From Oscillospiraceae bacterium (GTDB lineage: Bacteria; Bacillota; Clostridia; Oscillospirales; Ruminococcaceae): a stretch of 64,000 nucleotides of DNA. Positions 20,063-32,788 of the stretch are shown one piece after another. Where the stretch lies: assembly GCA_014799395.1 (NCBI GenBank), contig JAAVID010000046.1, positions 1 through 64,000 of the forward strand, written 5' to 3'. The notes under the pieces were generated by a model. It was given only the letters and a program-made list of their open reading frames with translations, did not search any database and was not told the origin of the DNA. Position numbers and translations under genes: made by a program. Positions within the stretch are counted from its first letter, which is position 1, and each line of letters begins with the position of its first letter.

Positions 20063-23000
20063 ATGAAAGCGGTAAATAAGAACACGATACGCGAAATATC
20101 CAAGTCCCGAAATCGCTTTCTGTCGATTTTTCTGATATGCGCTATCGGAGTTGGATTTTTCAGCGGAGTCCGCGCGACTTGTGAGATAATGAAGGTCTCC
20201 GCGGACGATTATTACGACAAGCAAAATCTGTTCGACCTGCGCGTGCTGTCAACGTTCGGGCTTACGGACGACGACGCAAAGGCTATCGCGGAGATAGACG
20301 GAGTGGACGGCGTGTACACGTCAAAATATACCGATCTCGCTATGCACGATAACGAACTTGAATATTTAACGCGCGTGTACTCGAAAACTCCCGACGAGAT
20401 AAATCTGGCGGATATTATCGAGGGCACAGCGCCGACAAAAGACGACGAGTGCATAGTAAGCTACAACATTCTCGGCAGAGGAATAAGCGTCGGCGATACG
20501 GTAACGCTTGAGGATCTTACCGACGCGGAGGAATTTCCGCTGAAACGAAAAGAATACAAGGTAGTCGGGATATACAATACCCCGATGTACATCTCCAAAA
20601 CTCAGCGCGGAAGCACGAATATCGGCGACGGCGCTCTTGACGCGTTTATGATAGTTCCCGAGGAGCATTTCACTCAGGAGGTCTACACCGAGATATACAT
20701 AAAGTCGGACATACTTCGCGGAATGCAGAGCTATTCCGATGAATACGCCGCCCTGCGCGATGAAATATCCGACAAGCTCGAACAGCTCGGAAAAGAGCGG
20801 AGCGTTATCCGTTACGACGAGGTAATAGGCGACGCGCAGGCGGAGATCGAAAAGGGCGAAAAGGAACTCGCCGAGGCAAAAGAGGACGGTCAGCGCGAGC
20901 TTGACGACGCGAAAAAACAGCTCGACGACGCAAAGAAGCAGATAGAGGACGGCGAAAAGGAGCTTGCCGACGCGGGCGAGGAAATAGCGGACGGAGAGGT
21001 TCAGCTTGCCGACGCGGAAAAGGAACTCGCCGACGCGTGGCGGGAGATAGAGGACGGCAAGCGCGAGCTTGAAGAAAACAAGCCCCTCCTGGACGACGCG
21101 AAAAAACAGCTCGAGGACGCAAGAAAAGAGATCGAGGACGGCGAACAGCAGCTCGCCGACGGAAAAAAAGCTCTCGACGACGCAAAGGCTCAGATAGAGG
21201 ACGCGAAGAAAGAACTCGAGGACGGCAGAAAGCAGTACGACGACGGCAAAAAAGAGCTCGACGACGCTCAGGCGGAGCTCGATGAAGCGCGAAAAGAGCT
21301 GAGCAGCGGAAGCTCTCAGCTCTACTACGCGCAGGGAGAGATAGACAGAAACAGCGCGGAGCTCAGCGCGGGCAGAGCCCAGCTCGAAGCCGCAAAGCAG
21401 GAAGTCGAGGACGGCGAGCGCCAGCTTGAGGAGGGCAAAGCTGCTCTCGAGGAAGCAAGAGCGCTTCTTGAAAGATACGAGGGCGAACTCGGAGCGCTGG
21501 AGGATCAGTACGGTCCGGACAGCGAGATAGTTATTCGCGCGAAAGCGGCAATGCAGGCGGCGCGTGACGGCGTTACCCGTGCGGAGGAGGAAGTCGTAAA
21601 CGGCGAAGCGCGGATAGAAGAGGGCAAACGCGAGATAGCCGAAAACGAGAAGAAGATCGCGGAGGGCGAGGCTCAGCTCAACGCCGCTCAAAGTCAGCTC
21701 GACGCGGGCTGGGCGGAGTATCGCGGCGGCGTTCGTCAGATAGACGACGCGCAGAAGCAGATAGACGATGGCAGAGCTGAGCTCGAGGAAGCAAAGGAAA
21801 AGCTCTCCGACGGCGAGCGGCAGATAACGGACGGTCTCGCGGAATACGCCGCGGGTCTCGAGGAATATCTGAAAAACGCCGAGCTTCTCGCCGAGGGCAA
21901 GTCGGAGTACGTCAAGGGTATGCAGGAATATACCGACGGTCTCATGGAGTACGCCGACGGTGTGCAGAAGCTCTCCGACGGCGAGGTGCAATATTACGAG
22001 GGCTTGGCGACTATCGCGGAAAAAAAGCTCGAATTGACGGACGGAAAACAGCAGTACGAGGACGGTCTCGCGGAGCTGGAGGAAGCTAAGAAAAAGTACG
22101 AGGACGGTCTTGTCGAATACGAGGACGGACTTTACGAATTCAACCGTGAAATTGCCGACGCGGAGAAGAAGCTCGCCGATGCGAGGGAGAAAATATCCGA
22201 CGCGGGAAACGCCGAGTGGTATATCTTCAAGCGCGACGACAACGTCGGCTATGCGGAATACGAGTCAAATTCCGAGAGAATAAACAAGATAGCGGCGATA
22301 TTCCCCGTGTTCTTCCTGCTGGTTGCGGGCTTGGTGTGCCTTACCACAATGTCGAGAATGGTCGAGGAGCAGCGCACGCAGGTCGGAACGCTCAAAGCGC
22401 TCGGTTATTCCAACAGCGCGATAATGCGGCATTATATGACCTACGCGGTCTCGGGCGCGGCGGCGGGAGGAGCTATCGGCGCGGTAGGCGGCTGTTTCCT
22501 TTTCCCGAGCGTTATCGTCTACGCGTATTCAATGATGTACAATATCGTTGATATTCATTATCTGTTTACTCCCGAAAATATGATAGTTTCCATAGGCTCT
22601 ATGGTTTTGGCGATAGCGGCTACGGTATTTTTCAGCTGCAACAAGGCATTGCAGGAGACCCCCGCTTCGCTTATGAGACCGAAAGCCCCCAAGGCGGGAA
22701 AGCGTGTGCTTATCGAGCGCATACCTTTCCTTTGGAACAATATGAACTTCTTCGCCAAGGTAAGCGGACGAAATCTTTTCCGTTACAAGCGCAGAATGTT
22801 TATGACGGTAGTCGGTATCGCGGGCTGTACGGCATTGTCCTTAACGGGCTTCGGTTTAAAGGACTCGATATCCGATATTGTAGATTTACAGTATGACGAA
22901 ATTTACCAATACAGCGGCTATATGGCATATGACGATGAGATAAAGCCTTCGGAGCTGAAAAGCATTTACGACACGCTTCTTGATTACGACGAAAACACCA

Positions 23001-23887
23001 AGTACACCCGAGCGCTGATCAAGCAGTACAGCACGGAGTTTTCGGGAAATAACGTTCAGGTCTACGTTACCGCGGTTGAGAATACGGAGCTGTTCGAGCA
23101 GTTTATCGACCTGCACGAGCGCGTATCCCGCGAAAAGCTGACCCTGTCGGACGGCGCGGTCATCACCGAAAAAGCGGCAAAGCTCCTAAACGCGGAGCAG
23201 GGCGACGAGATCACCCTGCAAATAAGCGACGGCGTAAACAAAAAGGTAAAGATAGCGGGAATTACCGAGCAGTACACGAGCCACTATCTCTATCTTTCCG
23301 AGGACCTGTACAAGGAGGTTTTCGGAAGCGAGCCGTACTACAATATGATCTATTTCGACAACGGCATTTCGCGTGACAAGGACGTTCAAAACGGCTTTAC
23401 CGAGCATATGCTGAAAAACGACAACGTTCTCGCGGTGATAATGAACGCAAGCTCGCTGTCGAGCGTTCACGATACGCTTCAAATTATGGACTTGGTAACG
23501 ATAGTGCTGATAGTTTCGGCGGCGGCGCTCGCGTTTGTGGTGCTGTACAATCTTACCAACGTCAACATTACCGAGCGCATACGCGAGATCGCAACGCTTA
23601 AAGTCCTCGGCTTCTATGACGCGGAGGTCTCGAGCTATGTGTTCCGCGAGAACATCATATTGTCGATAATGGGCGGCGTTGTCGGATTATTCCTCGGTCA
23701 CGCGCTCTGCCTGTTCGTGATCAACACGGCGGAGATAGACGAGGTCATGTTCGGACGAAACATTCACGTTCCGAGCTACATCTGGGCGCTTCTCGTTACC
23801 GTTGCGTTTTCGCTTATAGTCAATCTGATAATGACGAGAGTTTTGAAGAAGATCAGTATGGTCGAGTCCTTGAAATCCGTCGAATAA
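20063..23887 (+). CDS. FtsX-like ABC permease with giant extracellular coiled coil
   Basis: The 1274-residue protein has an N-terminal helix (about residues 14-34), an extracellular domain, then some 460 residues (about 253-712) of uninterrupted heptads of the form xxx-L/I-x-D/E-A/G. A first FtsX-type helix bundle follows (PVFFLLVAGLVCLTTMSRM and two more helices). A second extracellular domain and a second bundle complete it, with ATLKVLGF and VEIVTIVL-type segments near the end. This is the two-bundle ABC3 architecture with a coiled-coil stalk inserted in the first extracellular domain. It probably works with the ATPase upstream by mechanical transmission; the substrate is unknown. Confidence 0.88.
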   Translation: MKAVNKNTIREISKSRNRFLSIFLICAIGVGFFSGVRATCEIMKVSADDYYDKQNLFDLRVLSTFGLTDDDAKAIAEIDGVDGVYTSKYTDLAMHDNELEYLTRVYSKTPDEINLADIIEGTAPTKDDECIVSYNILGRGISVGDTVTLEDLTDAEEFPLKRKEYKVVGIYNTPMYISKTQRGSTNIGDGALDAFMIVPEEHFTQEVYTEIYIKSDILRGMQSYSDEYAALRDEISDKLEQLGKERSVIRYDEVIGDAQAEIEKGEKELAEAKEDGQRELDDAKKQLDDAKKQIEDGEKELADAGEEIADGEVQLADAEKELADAWREIEDGKRELEENKPLLDDAKKQLEDARKEIEDGEQQLADGKKALDDAKAQIEDAKKELEDGRKQYDDGKKELDDAQAELDEARKELSSGSSQLYYAQGEIDRNSAELSAGRAQLEAAKQEVEDGERQLEEGKAALEEARALLERYEGELGALEDQYGPDSEIVIRAKAAMQAARDGVTRAEEEVVNGEARIEEGKREIAENEKKIAEGEAQLNAAQSQLDAGWAEYRGGVRQIDDAQKQIDDGRAELEEAKEKLSDGERQITDGLAEYAAGLEEYLKNAELLAEGKSEYVKGMQEYTDGLMEYADGVQKLSDGEVQYYEGLATIAEKKLELTDGKQQYEDGLAELEEAKKKYEDGLVEYEDGLYEFNREIADAEKKLADAREKISDAGNAEWYIFKRDDNVGYAEYESNSERINKIAAIFPVFFLLVAGLVCLTTMSRMVEEQRTQVGTLKALGYSNSAIMRHYMTYAVSGAAAGGAIGAVGGCFLFPSVIVYAYSMMYNIVDIHYLFTPENMIVSIGSMVLAIAATVFFSCNKALQETPASLMRPKAPKAGKRVLIERIPFLWNNMNFFAKVSGRNLFRYKRRMFMTVVGIAGCTALSLTGFGLKDSISDIVDLQYDEIYQYSGYMAYDDEIKPSELKSIYDTLLDYDENTKYTRALIKQYSTEFSGNNVQVYVTAVENTELFEQFIDLHERVSREKLTLSDGAVITEKAAKLLNAEQGDEITLQISDGVNKKVKIAGITEQYTSHYLYLSEDLYKEVFGSEPYYNMIYFDNGISRDKDVQNGFTEHMLKNDNVLAVIMNASSLSSVHDTLQIMDLVTIVLIVSAAALAFVVLYNLTNVNITERIREIATLKVLGFYDAEVSSYVFRENIILSIMGGVVGLFLGHALCLFVINTAEIDEVMFGRNIHVPSYIWALLVTVAFSLIVNLIMTRVLKKISMVESLKSVE

Positions 23888-26199: not shown

Positions 26200-26228
26200 T
26201 TGACTAATTTGCCGAAAAGTGGTACAAT
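26200..26228 (+). promoter_or_regulatory. Promoter of the dtxR-like/serpin operon
   Basis: TTGACT (26200-26205), 17-bp spacer, TACAAT (26223-26228). It lies 39 bp before the regulator gene and is the only clear promoter before the four serpins. No obvious iron-box dyad was seen over it. Confidence 0.75.
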
Positions 26229-26266
26229 AGGTTTAAGCATTAGAATTATTATGAAAAGGCGGAACT

Positions 26267-26656
26267 ATGAAAGACAGAATTTTTGAATCCAAGGAAAATT
26301 ACCTTGAAACTATCTTGATTTTGCATAATCGCAACGGCGAGGTGCGCTCGGTAGATATTGCCGCGGAAATGGATTTTTCCAAGCCGTCGGTAAGCGTCGC
26401 AATGAAGAACCTCCGTGAGGAGGGCTGTATTTCCGTTGATAAGAACGGCTATATCTCGCTCACAAAATCGGGGCAGGAGATAGCGGAGCGCGTCTACGAG
26501 CGGCATTTGCTGTTTACAAGCTGGCTTACCTCTATGGGAGTTCCCGAGGATATAGCCTCCGAGGACGCGTGCAGGATAGAGCATTGTATCAGTGCGGAAA
26601 GCTTTGCGGCAATAAAGGAATTCGTGCAGAAGCACGGAGAGGGAATGCCGAAATAA
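26267..26656 (+). CDS. DtxR-family metal-dependent transcriptional regulator
   Basis: The 129-residue protein has an N-terminal winged helix-turn-helix (VDIAAEMDFSKPSVSVAMKNL, residues 29-49). A dimerisation/metal domain contains RH80, and Cys102, Glu105 and His106 in ACRIEH. These three match the primary iron site of DtxR (Cys102, Glu105, His106) even in numbering; the fourth DtxR ligand, Met10, is Asn11 here. It has no SH3-like domain. It sits 54 bp upstream of the first serpin, same strand, under one promoter, so it may couple serpin production to iron or manganese; that link is inference. Confidence 0.88.
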   Translation: MKDRIFESKENYLETILILHNRNGEVRSVDIAAEMDFSKPSVSVAMKNLREEGCISVDKNGYISLTKSGQEIAERVYERHLLFTSWLTSMGVPEDIASEDACRIEHCISAESFAAIKEFVQKHGEGMPK

Positions 26657-26710
26657 GAATGTTCGCGTTTTTCGTCGGTGTTCCCGTATTACAGCAAGGG
26701 GGAATACCGA

Positions 26711-27934
26711 ATGAAGAAAAGAATTATCGCAGTACTGGCTGCCGCGCTGTCCTTGACGGCTTGCGGCAAAACCGACGCTCCCGCAGCCGGCGGAATGGTC
26801 GCGGGAAAACACGAGCAGAATATGCTGTCGCCTATCGAGGTGACGGAGGACAACGTGCTGAATTCCGTCCGTCTGTTCGACGCGGTGAGCGCGGACAAGG
26901 CGAACAGTATGTTCAGTCCGCTGTCCTTGAATATGGCGCTCGGAATGCTCGCCGAGGGCGCGGAGGGAACTTCAAAGGAAGCGCTCGACAAGTACCTCGG
27001 CACGTCCGATTACGGCACGTTCGCCGAGAGCTATATGAAGCTCGCAAAGGATAAATACAACGGCAAGAGCGGCAAGGACGAAAATTATTTTGAGATCGCC
27101 AACTCGTTCTGGGGCGACGACAAATTCCCGTTCAAGCAGGACTACAAGAACGCGGTCACTCAAAAATTCGGCGCAGAGATACGCAATATGGACTTCGACG
27201 CCGCCGACAAGGTGGTAAGCGAGGTCAACCGCTGGGTATCGGACAAAACTCACAAGATGATACCGACCCTGCTGGAGAGTATCGAGCCCGAGACCGTCGC
27301 AATTCTCGTAAACACGGTTTACTTTGAGAGCGCTTGGAGCTCGGAATGGGATTACGATACCAAAAATAAAGACGCGTTCACTCTCCTCGACGGCTCATCA
27401 AAGGAGCTCACGCTTATGCGCAAAAGCGGCGGCGCGTACTTCGAGAACGACCAAGCGACCGCTTTCAGCAGCTCTTACAAAAACGGTCTGGAGTTTATCG
27501 GGATATTGCCGAAAGAAACGGGCGATTTCACGTTAGAAAGCCTTGACATTCCGTCGCTTTTGGAGAGCAGGAGCTATGAATATGACGTCACGAAGCGTAT
27601 GCCAAAGCTGACGTTCGATACCGAACTTCCGCTCGCGGACGCGCTGTCGGCGGCGGGTCTGTCGGAGTTATTCGACCGCGACATAGCAGACCTTTCGGGT
27701 ATGTCAGAGGATCCGATGTGGGTATCGGACGTTCTGCAAAAAACGCGGCTGGAGCTTGACGAGCACAAGACAAAAGCTGCCGCGGCTACGGCGGTAATGA
27801 CGAACGGTATCACCGCCGCTCCGTCCGAGCCGAAAATACGCAAAGAGGTATTTCTCGACCGTCCGTTCGCGTTTGTTATATACGACCCCGACCAAGAGCT
27901 GATAGTATTTGTCGGCAAGGTCACAGAGCCGTAA
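26711..27934 (+). CDS. Lipoprotein serpin 1 (serine protease inhibitor family I4)
   Basis: Serpins trap proteases when the reactive centre loop is cut. The product (407 residues) starts with a lipoprotein signal (MKKRIIAVLAAALSLTAC, Cys18). The body carries NSMFSPLSLNMALGMLAEGA and the C-terminal signature DRPFAFVIYD. The loop begins EHKTKAAAATAVMTNG, so the P15 position is Lys where most inhibitory serpins have Gly; predicted P1 is near Ile. The alanine-rich P12-P9 suggests it can still insert. An upstream in-frame ATG (26678) lacks a ribosome site; ATG 26711 follows AAGGGGGAA. Confidence 0.95.
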   Translation: MKKRIIAVLAAALSLTACGKTDAPAAGGMVAGKHEQNMLSPIEVTEDNVLNSVRLFDAVSADKANSMFSPLSLNMALGMLAEGAEGTSKEALDKYLGTSDYGTFAESYMKLAKDKYNGKSGKDENYFEIANSFWGDDKFPFKQDYKNAVTQKFGAEIRNMDFDAADKVVSEVNRWVSDKTHKMIPTLLESIEPETVAILVNTVYFESAWSSEWDYDTKNKDAFTLLDGSSKELTLMRKSGGAYFENDQATAFSSSYKNGLEFIGILPKETGDFTLESLDIPSLLESRSYEYDVTKRMPKLTFDTELPLADALSAAGLSELFDRDIADLSGMSEDPMWVSDVLQKTRLELDEHKTKAAAATAVMTNGITAAPSEPKIRKEVFLDRPFAFVIYDPDQELIVFVGKVTEP

Positions 27935-27947
27935 GGGGGGTGAGCGT

Positions 27948-29186
27948 ATGAAAAAAAGAATTATCTCCGTTATCGCGGCTTTGCTCACAATAACAATGAC
28001 GGCGTGCTCTAACGAAGAACCTTACGAGGCTCCGAGCGACGGCGTAGTCATCGGAAAATCGGAGCATACGGCTTTAAGTCAAATTGAAGTAACAAACGAC
28101 AATGTTCTGAATTCGATACGCGTTTTCGACACGGTAAGCGCGGACACGGCGAACAGTATGTTCAGCCCCTTGTCGCTGAATATGGCGCTCGGTATGCTCG
28201 CCGAGGGCGCGGGCGGAACTTCAAAGGAAGCTCTCGACAAATACCTCGGCACGTCCGATTACGGCAAATTCGCCGAAAGCTATATGAAAACCGTACAAAA
28301 GTACAACGTCAACAAGGGCGACGAGGGCGAATACAAAAACGCGCTCGAGATAGCGAATTCGTTCTGGGCTGACAAGGACCTCCCGTTCAGGAGCAGCTAC
28401 AAGCACAGCTTGGCGCAGAAATTCGGCGCGGAGGTGAGCAATGTCGACTTCGGCAATAAAAACAAAACGCTCAAGGAAATAAACGGCTGGGTCAACAAAA
28501 AAACTCACGAAATGATCCCGTCGATTTTGAGCGATTATTCGGGCGACATCGCGGCGGTGCTTATCAACAGCGTTTATTTTGAGTCGGGCTGGAGCAATTG
28601 GTGGGGCTATAACGCGAGAAATACGGACGAGTTCACCTTGCTCGACGGCTCGACAAAGGAGCTTGCGTTTATGCACAACAACGGCGAGCAATATTTCGAG
28701 AACGACAAGGCGATCGCGTTCGCGTTCGGTTACAAAAACGGTCTGGAGTTTATCGGCATACTCCCCAAGCAGACGGGAGATTTCACGATAGAGAGCCTTG
28801 ACATACCCTCGCTGCTCGCAAGCGAAACGAATGAATACGCCGTTTCCGCGCAAATGCCGAGGCTGACATTCGATACCACTCTGCCGCTTCTGGAGGCGCT
28901 TTCCGCGGCGGGATTGTCGGAGCTTTTCGGCTTTGGCACGGCAGACCTTTCGGGTATCTCGAACGAGGAGCTTTTCATTTCAGAGGTTCTGCAAAAGACC
29001 CGTCTGGAGCTTGACGAAAACGGCACAAGAGCCGCCGCGGTCACGGAAATGATGATGTCAGGCGGCGCGATTATGCCCGACCCGCGCGAGATAAAAGAGG
29101 TTTGGCTCAACCGTCCGTTCGCGTTTATGATCTACGACAGCGCGGAGGATCAGATCGTCTTTCTCGGCAAGGTAACGGAGCCGTAG
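27948..29186 (+). CDS. Lipoprotein serpin 2
   Basis: This 412-residue paralogue has a lipobox TMTAC and the same serpin core. The loop hinge is canonical (ENGTRAAAVTEM), so an inhibitory mechanism is likely. By length the scissile bond would fall near SGG-AIM, a small or hydrophobic P1 that suggests elastase-like or subtilisin-like targets; this is an estimate. It starts 13 bases after serpin 1 behind AGGGGGG. The C-terminus DSAEDQIVFLGKVTEP is nearly identical across the paralogues. Confidence 0.95.
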   Translation: MKKRIISVIAALLTITMTACSNEEPYEAPSDGVVIGKSEHTALSQIEVTNDNVLNSIRVFDTVSADTANSMFSPLSLNMALGMLAEGAGGTSKEALDKYLGTSDYGKFAESYMKTVQKYNVNKGDEGEYKNALEIANSFWADKDLPFRSSYKHSLAQKFGAEVSNVDFGNKNKTLKEINGWVNKKTHEMIPSILSDYSGDIAAVLINSVYFESGWSNWWGYNARNTDEFTLLDGSTKELAFMHNNGEQYFENDKAIAFAFGYKNGLEFIGILPKQTGDFTIESLDIPSLLASETNEYAVSAQMPRLTFDTTLPLLEALSAAGLSELFGFGTADLSGISNEELFISEVLQKTRLELDENGTRAAAVTEMMMSGGAIMPDPREIKEVWLNRPFAFMIYDSAEDQIVFLGKVTEP

Positions 29187-29197
29187 GAGGTATTCGG

Positions 29198-30439
29198 GTG
29201 AAAAAAAGAATTATCTCCATACTCGCGGCTATACTCGCGCTGTCAATGACGGGCTGTTCCGCCGGCAATAACGCAAGCGATGACGGCATAGTTATCGGAA
29301 AATCCAAGCATACGGCGCTGTCTCCGATTGAGGTTACGGACGACAACGTTCTCAACTCGATTCGGGTATTCGATTTGATAAGCACGGATATGGCGAACAG
29401 TATGTTCAGTCCGTTGTCCTTGAATATGGCGCTCGGTATGCTCGCCGAGGGCGCGGAGGGAAGCTCAAAAGAAGCCCTCGCCAAATACCTCGGCACGGAC
29501 GATTACAGCGCGTTTGCCGAAAGCTATATGAAGCTTGTTGAGAGCAAATATAATAACAAGTCCAAAGAGGACAAAGGCTATAACAACGCCTTTAAGATCG
29601 CAAATTCGTTCTGGGCTGACCAAGGTTATCCGTTCAAGGAGGACTATAAAAACGCGCTGGTTGAAAAATTCGGCGCGGAGATAAACAACGTCAATTTCGC
29701 CGATAAAAGCAAAACGCTCGACGAAATAAACAGCTGGGTCAAGGAAAAGACGAATAAGATGATACCGTCAATTCTTGCCGATTATCGTGACGACGTTGTC
29801 TCGGTGCTTATCAACACGGTTTATTTTGAGTCGGGCTGGGTTCGCGAGTGGTCGCTTGACAAAAACGACAAGCAGACGTTCACGCATTTCAGCGGCTCGA
29901 CAAAGGAAATTCCGCTTATGGTGAAAAACGGCAGCAGCTACTACGTCAGCTATTTCGAGAACGATATGGCGACAGCGTTCAGCTGCGGCTACAAAAACGG
30001 CACGGAATTTATCGGTATACTGCCCAAGCAAACGGGCGATTTCACGATAGAGAGCCTCGACATTCCGTCGCTGCTCGCAAGCGAAACCAAGGACTACGAC
30101 GTTATAGCGCGTATGCCCGAGCTGAGATTCGATTCGAGCTTTCCGCTGAACAACGCGCTTTCCGCGGCGGGACTGTCCGAGCTGTTCAACATTGAAACGG
30201 CAGATCTTTCGGGAATATCGGACGAGCGGCTTTGCGTTACCGAGGTACTTCAAAAGACCCGTCTCGAGCTCGACAAGGACGGCACAAAAGCCGCCGCGGT
30301 GACAGCGATAGCTCCCGGCAATATGATGCCAATGCCGAAAGAGAAAAAGGAGGTCACGCTTGACCGTCCTTTCGCATTTATGATATATGACAGCGAGGAA
30401 GAGCAGATAGTCTTTCTCGGCAAAGTAACAGAACCGTAA
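29198..30439 (+). CDS. Lipoprotein serpin 3
   Basis: This 413-residue paralogue begins at GTG 29198 (VKKRIISILAAILALSMTGC) with AGGAGG 7 nt upstream; an open frame reaches back into serpin 2 but has no start signal there. The hinge is DGTKAAAVTAIAPGN, and the loop is two residues shorter than in serpins 2 and 4, with predicted P1-P1' near Met-Met. A methionine P1 is what antitrypsin uses against elastase. The gap to serpin 2 is 11 bases. Confidence 0.94.
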   Translation: MKKRIISILAAILALSMTGCSAGNNASDDGIVIGKSKHTALSPIEVTDDNVLNSIRVFDLISTDMANSMFSPLSLNMALGMLAEGAEGSSKEALAKYLGTDDYSAFAESYMKLVESKYNNKSKEDKGYNNAFKIANSFWADQGYPFKEDYKNALVEKFGAEINNVNFADKSKTLDEINSWVKEKTNKMIPSILADYRDDVVSVLINTVYFESGWVREWSLDKNDKQTFTHFSGSTKEIPLMVKNGSSYYVSYFENDMATAFSCGYKNGTEFIGILPKQTGDFTIESLDIPSLLASETKDYDVIARMPELRFDSSFPLNNALSAAGLSELFNIETADLSGISDERLCVTEVLQKTRLELDKDGTKAAAVTAIAPGNMMPMPKEKKEVTLDRPFAFMIYDSEEEQIVFLGKVTEP

Positions 30440-30452
30440 AGGGGGTAAAAAA

Positions 30453-31838
30453 ATGAAACAAAAATTTATTTCCATAATCGCAGTAATTCTCGCGCTTACA
30501 AGTCTCTCGGGCTGTACCGAAAACGCGCCCTTGACAAGCGGACAGGACAGCACCGTTAATTCCACAAGCGGAGAGGGTTCGGATAATTCATCGACAAACT
30601 CATCGTCAAGCAGTACGAAAGACCCCGTGCAGAGCAGCTCGGAGCATACCGAAAGCAGCTCTCCCGAGGAAAGCAGTATCCCCGCTCCAATAGAGGTAAG
30701 CAGCTCGGCAAGCGTTGACATTCCGCCCGTCGAGCTCACCGCCGATAATATGCTGACCTCGATAAAGCTGTTTGACGTGATAAGTCGGGACAAGGATAAC
30801 AGTATGTTCAGCCCGTTGTCGCTGAATATGGCGCTCGGACTGCTTGCGGAGGGCGCGGGCGGCGGCTCAAAGACCGCGCTCGATACATACCTCGGCACGG
30901 ATAAATATTCCGATTTTGTCGACGGTTATATGCAGATAGTCGAGAGCCAATATAATTACGAGTCGGATTATGACACCGACTGGAAAAACGTTTTCGAGAT
31001 AGCGAACTCGTTCTGGGCGAACAAGAGTATACCTTTTAATGAGGACTACAAAAACAGGCTGTCCGAGAAGTTCAAGGCGGAGGTCCGGAATATCGACTTC
31101 GGCGACAAGACAAACGCGCTTGGCGAGATCAACGGCTGGGTCAGCGACAAGACCCACAAAATGATACCGACGATAATCAACGATTACTCGGACGACATCG
31201 CGGCGGTGCTCATCAACACGATTTATTTTGAGAGCGCGTGGAGAACGTCGTGGACGATAAACGAGGACGACAAACAGCCGTTCACCCTGCCCGACGGTTC
31301 GACAAAGGACATACCGCTTATGCGCAACAGCGTAAGGAGCTATTTCGAGAACGACAAGGCAACGGCGTTCAGCTGCGGTTATCTTAACGGTCTTGAATTT
31401 ATCGGAATATTGCCGAAAGAAACGGGCGATTTCACGATAGAGAGCCTTGACATTCCGTCGCTGCTTGAAAGCGAGAGCTACGAATTTGACGTTTACGCGG
31501 GTATGCCGAGACTGAATTTCGAGACGGAAATTCCGCTTACCGAAACGTTAAACGCGTTCGGCTTGTCGGAGATATTCGACGAAAACGCGGCGGATTTTTA
31601 TGGGATCTCCCAAGTGGCGTTACACGTTTCGGATATACTGCAAAAGACCAAGCTGGAGCTTGACGAAAACGGAACCAAGGCTGCCGCCGTGACTGCGATC
31701 TTAATTGAGGATACCTCGGCAATGCCCGTTGAGCGCGAGAAAAAATCTGTCACGCTCGACCGTCCGTTCGCGTTTATGATCTACGACAGCGCGGAAGATC
31801 AGATAATCTTTTTGGGTAAAGTCACAGACCCGCAATAA
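30453..31838 (+). CDS. Lipoprotein serpin 4 with serine-rich stalk
   Basis: This is the longest paralogue (461 residues). After the lipobox (LSGC) comes a ~60-residue low-complexity stalk of Ser, Thr, Glu and Asn (residues 22-85) that would lift the domain off the cell surface. The serpin core and canonical hinge (ENGTKAAAVTAILI) follow, with predicted P1-P1' near Thr-Ser. The end reads DRPFAFMIYDSAEDQIIFLGKVTDPQ. It is the last serpin, 13 bases after serpin 3 and 22 bases before the MBL gene, all one strand. Confidence 0.95.
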   Translation: MKQKFISIIAVILALTSLSGCTENAPLTSGQDSTVNSTSGEGSDNSSTNSSSSSTKDPVQSSSEHTESSSPEESSIPAPIEVSSSASVDIPPVELTADNMLTSIKLFDVISRDKDNSMFSPLSLNMALGLLAEGAGGGSKTALDTYLGTDKYSDFVDGYMQIVESQYNYESDYDTDWKNVFEIANSFWANKSIPFNEDYKNRLSEKFKAEVRNIDFGDKTNALGEINGWVSDKTHKMIPTIINDYSDDIAAVLINTIYFESAWRTSWTINEDDKQPFTLPDGSTKDIPLMRNSVRSYFENDKATAFSCGYLNGLEFIGILPKETGDFTIESLDIPSLLESESYEFDVYAGMPRLNFETEIPLTETLNAFGLSEIFDENAADFYGISQVALHVSDILQKTKLELDENGTKAAAVTAILIEDTSAMPVEREKKSVTLDRPFAFMIYDSAEDQIIFLGKVTDPQ

Positions 31839-31860
31839 AATATAAAGTGAGGGAAAATTC

Positions 31861-32715
31861 TTGAGGATAATTTGTCTTATCGAAAACACGGCGGTTAATG
31901 AAAAGCTGTTTTTTGAGGAGGGTATGTCGCTGTTTGTCGAATACAACGGCAGAAACTACCTTATCGACACGGGGCTTACGGGAAAGGCGGTCGAAAACGC
32001 AAAGCGTATGCGCCTGCCGATAAACGACATCGACGCTGTTGTGCTCACGCACAGCCACCTGGCGCACACGGGCGGTATAGACCAGATAATGAAGATCAAC
32101 CCGGGCGCGGACATCTATCTCCGCGCGGGCGCTAAGGAAGAGGTGTTCAGAAAAAACGGCTTGTTTAAGTCCGCGGTAGGGCAGGGCAGAGGGTTCTTTA
32201 AGAAGTACGCTCACAATCTGGTTTTGTTCAACAGCTTTTCGGAGGTTTGCGAGGGCTTTTATCTGGCGAGCTGCGAGGACTTCGACGAGAAAAGCATAAA
32301 CCCCGACCGCAGCTATTTCGTAATGTCGGAGGAGGAGAAAAAGCCGCAGCCGTTCAACTTCTCGGACGAGAGCTTTGCTGTCATCTTCCCGAAAAAGCGC
32401 AAGGCGGACGGGTTGGTGCTGGTCGGAGGCTGTTTCCATTGCGGCGCGGCGAATATGCTCGAGACCGTTCAGCGGCGCTGGCACGATATTCCGATACTCG
32501 CGATAATCGGCGGCTTCCACTTTATGGGAAGCAACCCCAAGGCGCTTAATTGCTCCGCGGATTACGTCACGGCGCAGTCGCGCGCGATAAAGCTGTCGGG
32601 CGCGGAAAAGGTATACGCGTGCCACTGCACGGGCTTCCGCGGCTTCGACCTTATGGACGAAATGCTCGGCGACAGGATACTTTATCTTGGCGGCGGCGAG
32701 GCGCTGGAGTTCTGA
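31861..32715 (+). CDS. Metallo-beta-lactamase-fold protein with altered metal motif
   Basis: The 284-residue protein resembles the MBL subgroup of COG1237 type (GGCFHCGAANM for the second histidine site and CHCTG near the end). The first motif is THSHLAHTGG (residues 63-72): the aspartate of HxHxDH is replaced by Ala68, which should weaken the second metal site. Length is normal. It starts at TTG 31861 with GAGGG upstream and no promoter of its own, so it is probably the last gene of the serpin operon. The substrate is unknown. Confidence 0.85.
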   Translation: MRIICLIENTAVNEKLFFEEGMSLFVEYNGRNYLIDTGLTGKAVENAKRMRLPINDIDAVVLTHSHLAHTGGIDQIMKINPGADIYLRAGAKEEVFRKNGLFKSAVGQGRGFFKKYAHNLVLFNSFSEVCEGFYLASCEDFDEKSINPDRSYFVMSEEEKKPQPFNFSDESFAVIFPKKRKADGLVLVGGCFHCGAANMLETVQRRWHDIPILAIIGGFHFMGSNPKALNCSADYVTAQSRAIKLSGAEKVYACHCTGFRGFDLMDEMLGDRILYLGGGEALEF

Positions 32716-32720
32716 TAACC

Positions 32721-32749
32721 AAGAGCTCCCCCACAGCAGTGGAGCTTTT
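32721..32749 (+). terminator. Terminator after the MBL gene
   Basis: AAGAGCTCC (32721-32729) pairs with GGAGCTTTT (32741-32749), one G-T pair, with the T-run inside the right arm. It closes the regulator-serpin-MBL unit. Confidence 0.6.
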
Positions 32750-32759
32750 GCTGTTCCTA

Positions 32760-32788
32760 TTGACAAACAATACCCGTTATGGTATAAT
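32760..32788 (+). promoter_or_regulatory. coaX promoter
   Basis: TTGACA (32760-32765), 17-bp spacer, TATAAT (32783-32788): both hexamers are perfect. Confidence 0.9.

Follow-up and report, generated by a model that had tools for sequence, protein, structure and literature searches.

Gene organization of the locus

The 64,000-nucleotide (nt) stretch of DNA analyzed here, hereafter the window, is part of contig C46 in the 2.76-Mb draft genome (97.75% complete) of an Oscillospiraceae bacterium and carries, consecutively and all on the plus strand, genes for a metalloregulator of the DtxR/MntR family, four serpins and a protein with a metallo-β-lactamase (MBL) fold. The regulator gene (26267..26656) encodes 129 amino acids (aa) with the Pfam domains PF01325 and PF02742. 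It is followed by serpin 1 (26711..27934, lipobox LTAC), serpin 2 (27948..29186, lipobox MTAC), serpin 3 (29198..30439, GTG start, lipobox MTGC) and serpin 4 (30453..31838, lipobox LSGC and a long Ser-rich linker), of which serpins 1, 2 and 4 score 254, 254 and 252 bits against the Pfam Serpin profile, and then by the MBL-fold gene (31861..32715, TTG start). From the regulator through the MBL gene, the intergenic gaps measure 54, 13, 11, 13 and 22 nt. The original prediction had described the regulator, four lipoprotein serpins and the MBL gene as one unit, with gaps of 11–13 bp, that ends at a single terminator. Such a unit is borne out by the common strand, the gaps, a promoter-like site ahead of the regulator and a terminator-like hairpin behind the MBL gene, while the gap range holds among the serpins and not between the regulator and serpin 1. 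As for the end of the unit, one hairpin does lie 3' of the MBL gene (32720..32750, plus strand; −14.6 kcal/mol, z −2.18), but it is weak and terminator-like only: 8 of 200 shuffles equaled it, it has just four T residues, partly within the stem, and an automatic terminator scan with a loop limit of 8 did not list it.

Serpin fold, inhibitory hinge and lipoprotein signal

All four serpins match PF00079 at 252–256 bits (cut-off 27), covering the profile from positions 7, 8, 14 and 7, respectively, to position 370 of 370. They belong to the serpin fold, which they have in common with the solved serpins miropin, tengpin and conserpin, with structural alignments at 25–31% identity. Relative to serpin 1, serpins 2, 3 and 4 show 63%, 63% and 55% identity, and the only serpin matches in this genome are the four of the array. 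A lipoprotein-type signal with a lipobox cysteine stands at the start of each, by which pattern the window serpins are predicted to be lipoproteins. The inhibitory hinge from P17 to P8, with small residues and Thr at P14, is intact in 31 of 31 readable copies among the 32 serpins found at this locus across the genus, and the window serpins would by this hinge be of the inhibitory type. Fold, hinge and lipobox are well supported as predicted features of these proteins. The bait loop could be measured in 27 of the 32 in-locus serpins and spans 32–38 residues by script count; two further rows gave no value and three plainly mis-measured ones were excluded.

A probably older regulator–MBL pair and a later serpin cassette

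A close ortholog of the regulator (at least 69% identity) was present in 42 of 43 genomes of the same genus, and a full-length MBL ortholog (at least 67% identity) in 38 of 43. The exception for the regulator was G014, with a 29% match; this genome, in which one contig begins with an MBL end piece (73%), lies outside the 42-genome counts, and its serpin is included in the serpin tree below. We therefore compared 42 regulator loci, namely those of 41 relatives and the window. Serpins follow the regulator in 16 of them, with 1–5 copies each and 32 in all: five in G028, four in the window, three in G017, G025 and G029, two in G001, G002 and G016, and one in eight others. In 22 of the 26 genomes without in-locus serpins, the MBL gene comes directly after the regulator (at most 82 nt), and in the remaining four (G030, G034, G040 and G041) no MBL gene was found beside the regulator at the locus; in the carrier G016 the MBL gene is inverted. 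A genome of the sister genus (G159) has an FtsX-type permease gene, an AspA-like gene, the regulator and the MBL gene in this order and no serpin. Given that the pair of regulator and MBL gene stands free of serpins in 22 genomes and in the sister genus, we take the pair to be older and the serpins to be an addition; under the reverse history, with early serpins and many losses, the sister genus must also have lost its serpins.

On a tree built from the regulator, MBL, AspA and permease sequences (with the rows of G009, G017 and G020 30% filled), the presence of serpins requires at least three changes, whereas shuffles need 12.9 on average. One group of 18 contains fifteen of the 16 carriers together with the non-carriers G032, G039 and G042, and the remaining carrier, G026, stands apart on a long serpin branch. 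A tree of 52 genus serpins (quick method, midpoint drawing, no bootstrap) splits the 32 in-locus copies from the 20 others by a branch with a Shimodaira–Hasegawa-like approximate likelihood ratio (SH-aLRT) support of 99. The tree contains 52 of the 54 serpin matches in the genus, two fragments of G005 being left out, and the match of G021, which has an internal stop, entered with one open piece only. Tandem copies seem to have arisen independently in G017, in G016, around G001/G002 and in the clade of the window, with some forks open. Using serpin 3 as the query, none of the matches listed outside the genus exceeded 37% identity (148 family and 394 order genomes, in overlapping samples), and a pattern scan returned ten Clostridia loci at 49–85% identity, apparently nine of them from the same genus, and twelve Bacteroidales/Bacteroidia loci at 27–31%. 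As judged from these trees and searches, the window array is a lineage-specific cassette that forms a single clade and was expanded in tandem. In G182, a serpin gene and a DtxR-like gene are separated by 3 kb that contain open frames on both strands; we rejected this locus, as far as read, as an instance of the same arrangement.

Other full-length serpins, encoded elsewhere, occur in 2 of the 16 carriers versus 16 of the 26 non-carriers (Fisher p 0.003, with no correction for kinship), and in-locus and other serpins are nearly mutually exclusive in the genus. No full-length serpin of either class is found in 10 of the 42 genomes. The original prediction had further held that bacterial serpins are rare, which the surveyed genomes contradict: a serpin match is present in 34 of 43 genomes of the genus, 39 of 148 sampled genomes of the family and 180 of 394 sampled genomes of the order. 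The idea that the array is exceptional by itself on account of such rarity was accordingly dropped, serpins being common in the order and one family genome, G137, having nine serpin matches in open frames of 503–665 aa. The frequency of serpins throughout the order would suit a different role, in which the serpins curb proteases that the cell itself exports, or its wall enzymes, rather than foreign targets, and a lipid anchor would indeed retain them at the cell surface for this purpose. We nevertheless consider such a role quite unlikely, as copy number and bait loops differ among close relatives, which fits variable outside targets better, and as those 10 of 42 genomes do without any full-length serpin.

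Selection and possible sequence exchange among the serpin copies

The ratio of nonsynonymous to synonymous substitution rates (dN/dS) was 0.16 for the serpin body, which, together with the intact hinges, indicates purifying selection. This bears on the idea that chance determined the insertion site and that the array is an almost neutral passenger carried along by tandem duplication. The patchy presence of the serpins, with its minimum of three changes, and the lack of the array in G032, G039 and G042 inside the carrier group would agree with such a passenger; the constrained body and the hinge preserved in every readable copy make it highly improbable.

Serpins 4 and 5 of G028 (L077:5815-8668) differ at 6 of 291 positions in the body and at 9 of 15 in the loop. 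In this pair, a tract of about 216 codons (hand count) is identical even at silent sites, and silent changes are found in the flanks and near the loop, so that gene conversion or assembly collapse, and not acceleration of the loop, accounts for the pattern. Strong positive selection on the bait loops was therefore rejected. No conversion-like tract was found among the window's own four copies, which share stretches of 74–300 nt at 61–80% identity and have a silent-site identity of 0.60–0.69 overall, with a few segments reaching up to 0.94.

Regulator identity and the question of metal control

The regulator scores 35.9 bits against PF01325 (cut-off 26) and 53 bits against PF02742 (cut-off 27), corresponding to a helix-turn-helix and a metal-binding dimerization domain. 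Like its best solved relative, MntR 2h09, it has the two-domain short form of the MntR/DtxR/IdeR proteins, and with 129 aa it is too short to hold the third domain of DtxR. It remains below the cut-offs of both NCBIfam MntR equivalogs (94.6 versus 153 and 66.9 versus 138). The iron-type ligands of DtxR are Met10, Cys102, Glu105 and His106. The original prediction had seen the Cys-Glu-His iron ligands of DtxR in this protein, and this part stands: C102, E105 and H106, as well as H80 and E14, are kept in 42 of 42 orthologs. The iron-type set as a whole does not, since the window regulator carries Asn11 at the place of Met10, which is Asn in 30 and Asp in 12 of the 42 orthologs; we take this residue to sit where DtxR has Met10 or MntR has Asp8. 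By its domains the protein is a member of the DtxR/MntR family, but its predicted metal site differs from those of the known regulators in being mixed, combining the Cys102 of DtxR with an Asn or Asp in place of Met10.

Upstream of the regulator lies a sigma-70-like promoter candidate (26200..26228, plus strand) consisting of TTGACT, a spacer of 17 and TACAAT with an extended −10, at 10 of 12 matches. The promoter scan by itself is no evidence, because the count of promoter-like sites in the region (10) is near the level of shuffles (7.1, standard deviation 3.2); the site at 26200..26228 is favored because of its place and because the relatives listed share its −35, extended −10 and spacing, with a variable spacer sequence. 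In nine genomes, the regulator starts 11–26 nt after the AspA gene (11–12 nt if an earlier ATG is used; in some rows of the locus comparison, those beginning LESK, the chosen starts are 15 nt late), and a promoter of its own is therefore not a constant feature of the regulator.

These data bear on the proposal of the original prediction that the array is metal-gated. In such a scheme the regulator, loaded with iron or manganese, would bind the promoter ahead of its gene and thereby switch the serpins on or off as a shield. The promoter-like site and short gaps common to regulator and serpins are in keeping with it, as are the Cys-Glu-His residues in all 42 orthologs and the fact that a search of the genome with the regulator (E ≤ 0.001) returned the regulator alone. 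However, the regulator–MBL pair occurs without serpins, the spacing after AspA in nine genomes leaves scant space for a separate promoter, and the same genome has two Fur-family genes. In addition, a crude search (half-sites of 8, gap 0–5, simple base shuffles) found no palindrome above shuffles in the 110 bp upstream of the window regulator (174 of 200 shuffles as good). The same search gave nothing above chance in 11 of 15 genomes, the window included, and marginal palindromes at best in the other four (matched by 28, 30, 49 and 70 of 200 shuffles). Moreover, neither the three best FeoB-like loci nor the two Fur loci shared an 18-mer (up to 3 mismatches) with the regulator promoter, except for one AT-rich match with 3 mismatches. 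Metal control of the array is thus possible but unsupported by the sequence, and we regard gating as unlikely. Should the metalloregulator control its own promoter, it may act on the serpins as well; as far as shown, the link between array and regulator is one of position. As the regulator–MBL pair exists serpin-free, also in the sister genus, we rejected the notion that linkage makes the protein a dedicated serpin regulator.

A conserved hairpin ahead of serpin 1

The 54-nt gap between the regulator and serpin 1 contains an inverted repeat, CGGTGTTCCC / GGGAATACCG (26676..26709, plus strand), whose right arm includes the ribosome-binding site of serpin 1. The corresponding hairpin is recognizable in all five genomes of the window's clade (the window, G025, G028, G029 and L029), with its inner ten pairs intact in three of them and nine of ten kept in two, and gives a single exact match across the genome of the window. 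The length of the loop varies among the five genomes, and this varying spacing favors an RNA structure over a dimeric operator. As a candidate control element between regulator and serpins, the hairpin appears likeliest, ahead of metal gating. A further hairpin scan, with the start codon misplaced for some rows (e.g. G025 and G029), is not the basis for this claim. In five serpin-free relatives (L054, L055, L056, L057 and L059), a strong GC-rich, attenuator-like hairpin lies between the regulator and the MBL gene, for which 0, 0, 0, 0 and 7 of 100 simple shuffles, respectively, were as good.

The MBL-fold gene and neighboring genes

The MBL protein matches Lactamase_B at 47.6 bits (cut-off 22.7), and its nearest solved relative is 2p4z (E 6.7e-38). 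The usual dinuclear MBL motif is HxHxDH, with Asp. The window protein reads HxHxAH, and Ala, Gly, Ser, Thr or Pro occupies the place of this Asp in 35 of 35 pattern-matching orthologs, out of 38 in total (those of G003, G016 and G027 failed the motif pattern), while 2p4z retains the Asp. The metal site of the regulator-linked MBL hydrolase is, to judge by this motif, possibly altered. The Asp is also missing from the MBL protein of the sister genus genome G159.

Next after the unit comes a type III pantothenate kinase gene, whose own promoter-like site (32760-32788) is a perfect consensus (12/12) with TG before the −10. On the other side, positions 20063-23887 encode a 1274-aa FtsX/MacB-type permease by Pfam, with weak coiled-coil matches, that adjoins an ABC ATPase. 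A permease homolog lies upstream in 38 of the 42 regulator loci; among the exceptions, none was present in the fetched stretch of G009, and the contig or fetched stretch ends nearby in G017, G020 and G028.

Comparison with known serpin systems

Bacterial serpins are called poorly studied in a review (PMC6718151), and miropin, tengpin and the siropins are placed in their Group T (PMC8233489). Eubacterium siraeum, a gut bacterium, has siropins 1 and 2, which like the window serpins are related to one another; they are inhibitory and 60% identical, with bait loops that differ more (48%), and neutrophil elastase and proteinase 3 cleave them after Val (PMC5127057). They differ in that one is predicted to be intracellular and the other extracellular, and the accessible sections of that paper mention no array, regulator or lipoprotein signal. 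In Bifidobacterium, the serpin gene likewise lies in a regulated operon, with sugar control in B. longum, but the accessible sections describe other regulators and neither a metalloregulator nor a tandem array (PMC8012564). Among open PubMed Central papers, 'serpin' and 'DtxR' together returned cancer papers only, by title, and the listed titles and abstract starts named no tandem lipoprotein serpin array, most subscription papers being outside this search. The parts of the system are known; the arrangement is, as far as this search reaches, new, and its history is readable.

A proposed surface antiprotease cassette

We propose, with a probability of about 0.62, that a cassette encoding lipid-anchored serpins of inhibitory type was inserted into an older metalloregulator–MBL pair, multiplied in tandem and serves to trap extracellular serine-type proteases. 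The serpins would be transcribed from the promoter ahead of the regulator, and the hairpin spanning the serpin 1 ribosome-binding site would probably set the serpin yield per transcript. Once exported, the proteins would be held at the cell surface via the lipobox cysteine, where they would trap proteases by the suicide mechanism, and a distinct bait loop in each copy would allow the set to cover several proteases.

Several observations weigh against this proposal. The non-carriers G032, G039 and G042 interrupt the carrier group. Co-transcription is inferred from the gaps only, and the 54-nt gap before serpin 1 could hold a transcription start site. Covariation in the hairpin is minimal: of 11 pairs, the outermost is changed on both sides, two are changed on one side and three are broken in one genome each, and because of this slight covariation the case for the hairpin is one of conservation and position. 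At hinge position P15, Lys replaces Gly in serpin 1 and its orthologs, which is atypical of inhibitory serpins. The bait loops exceed that of conserpin by 5–8 residues between P14 and RPF (hand count), and P1 is not assignable because of this excess. Finally, dN/dS in the bait loops is below 1 and the loop of one of nine pairs (G003/G027) has no amino-acid change, so diversifying selection is not shown.

A more far-reaching version, which we offer as a long shot, is that of a modular surface antiprotease array, inserted into the metalloregulator–hydrolase unit, in which a dedicated cis RNA hairpin, acting as a sensor or coupling device, sets the output and the copies swap their bodies by gene conversion while keeping their loops distinct. 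If true, the bacterium would possess a repertoire of protease traps that is able to evolve. The cassette as found corrects the notion that an adjoining regulator names the function of an array, and the natural series, in which related species have 0, 1, 2, 3, 4 or 5 serpins at this one site, offers a comparative test of what serpins are used for. If the hairpin controls translation, it would also provide a handle on how serpin output is set in these bacteria.
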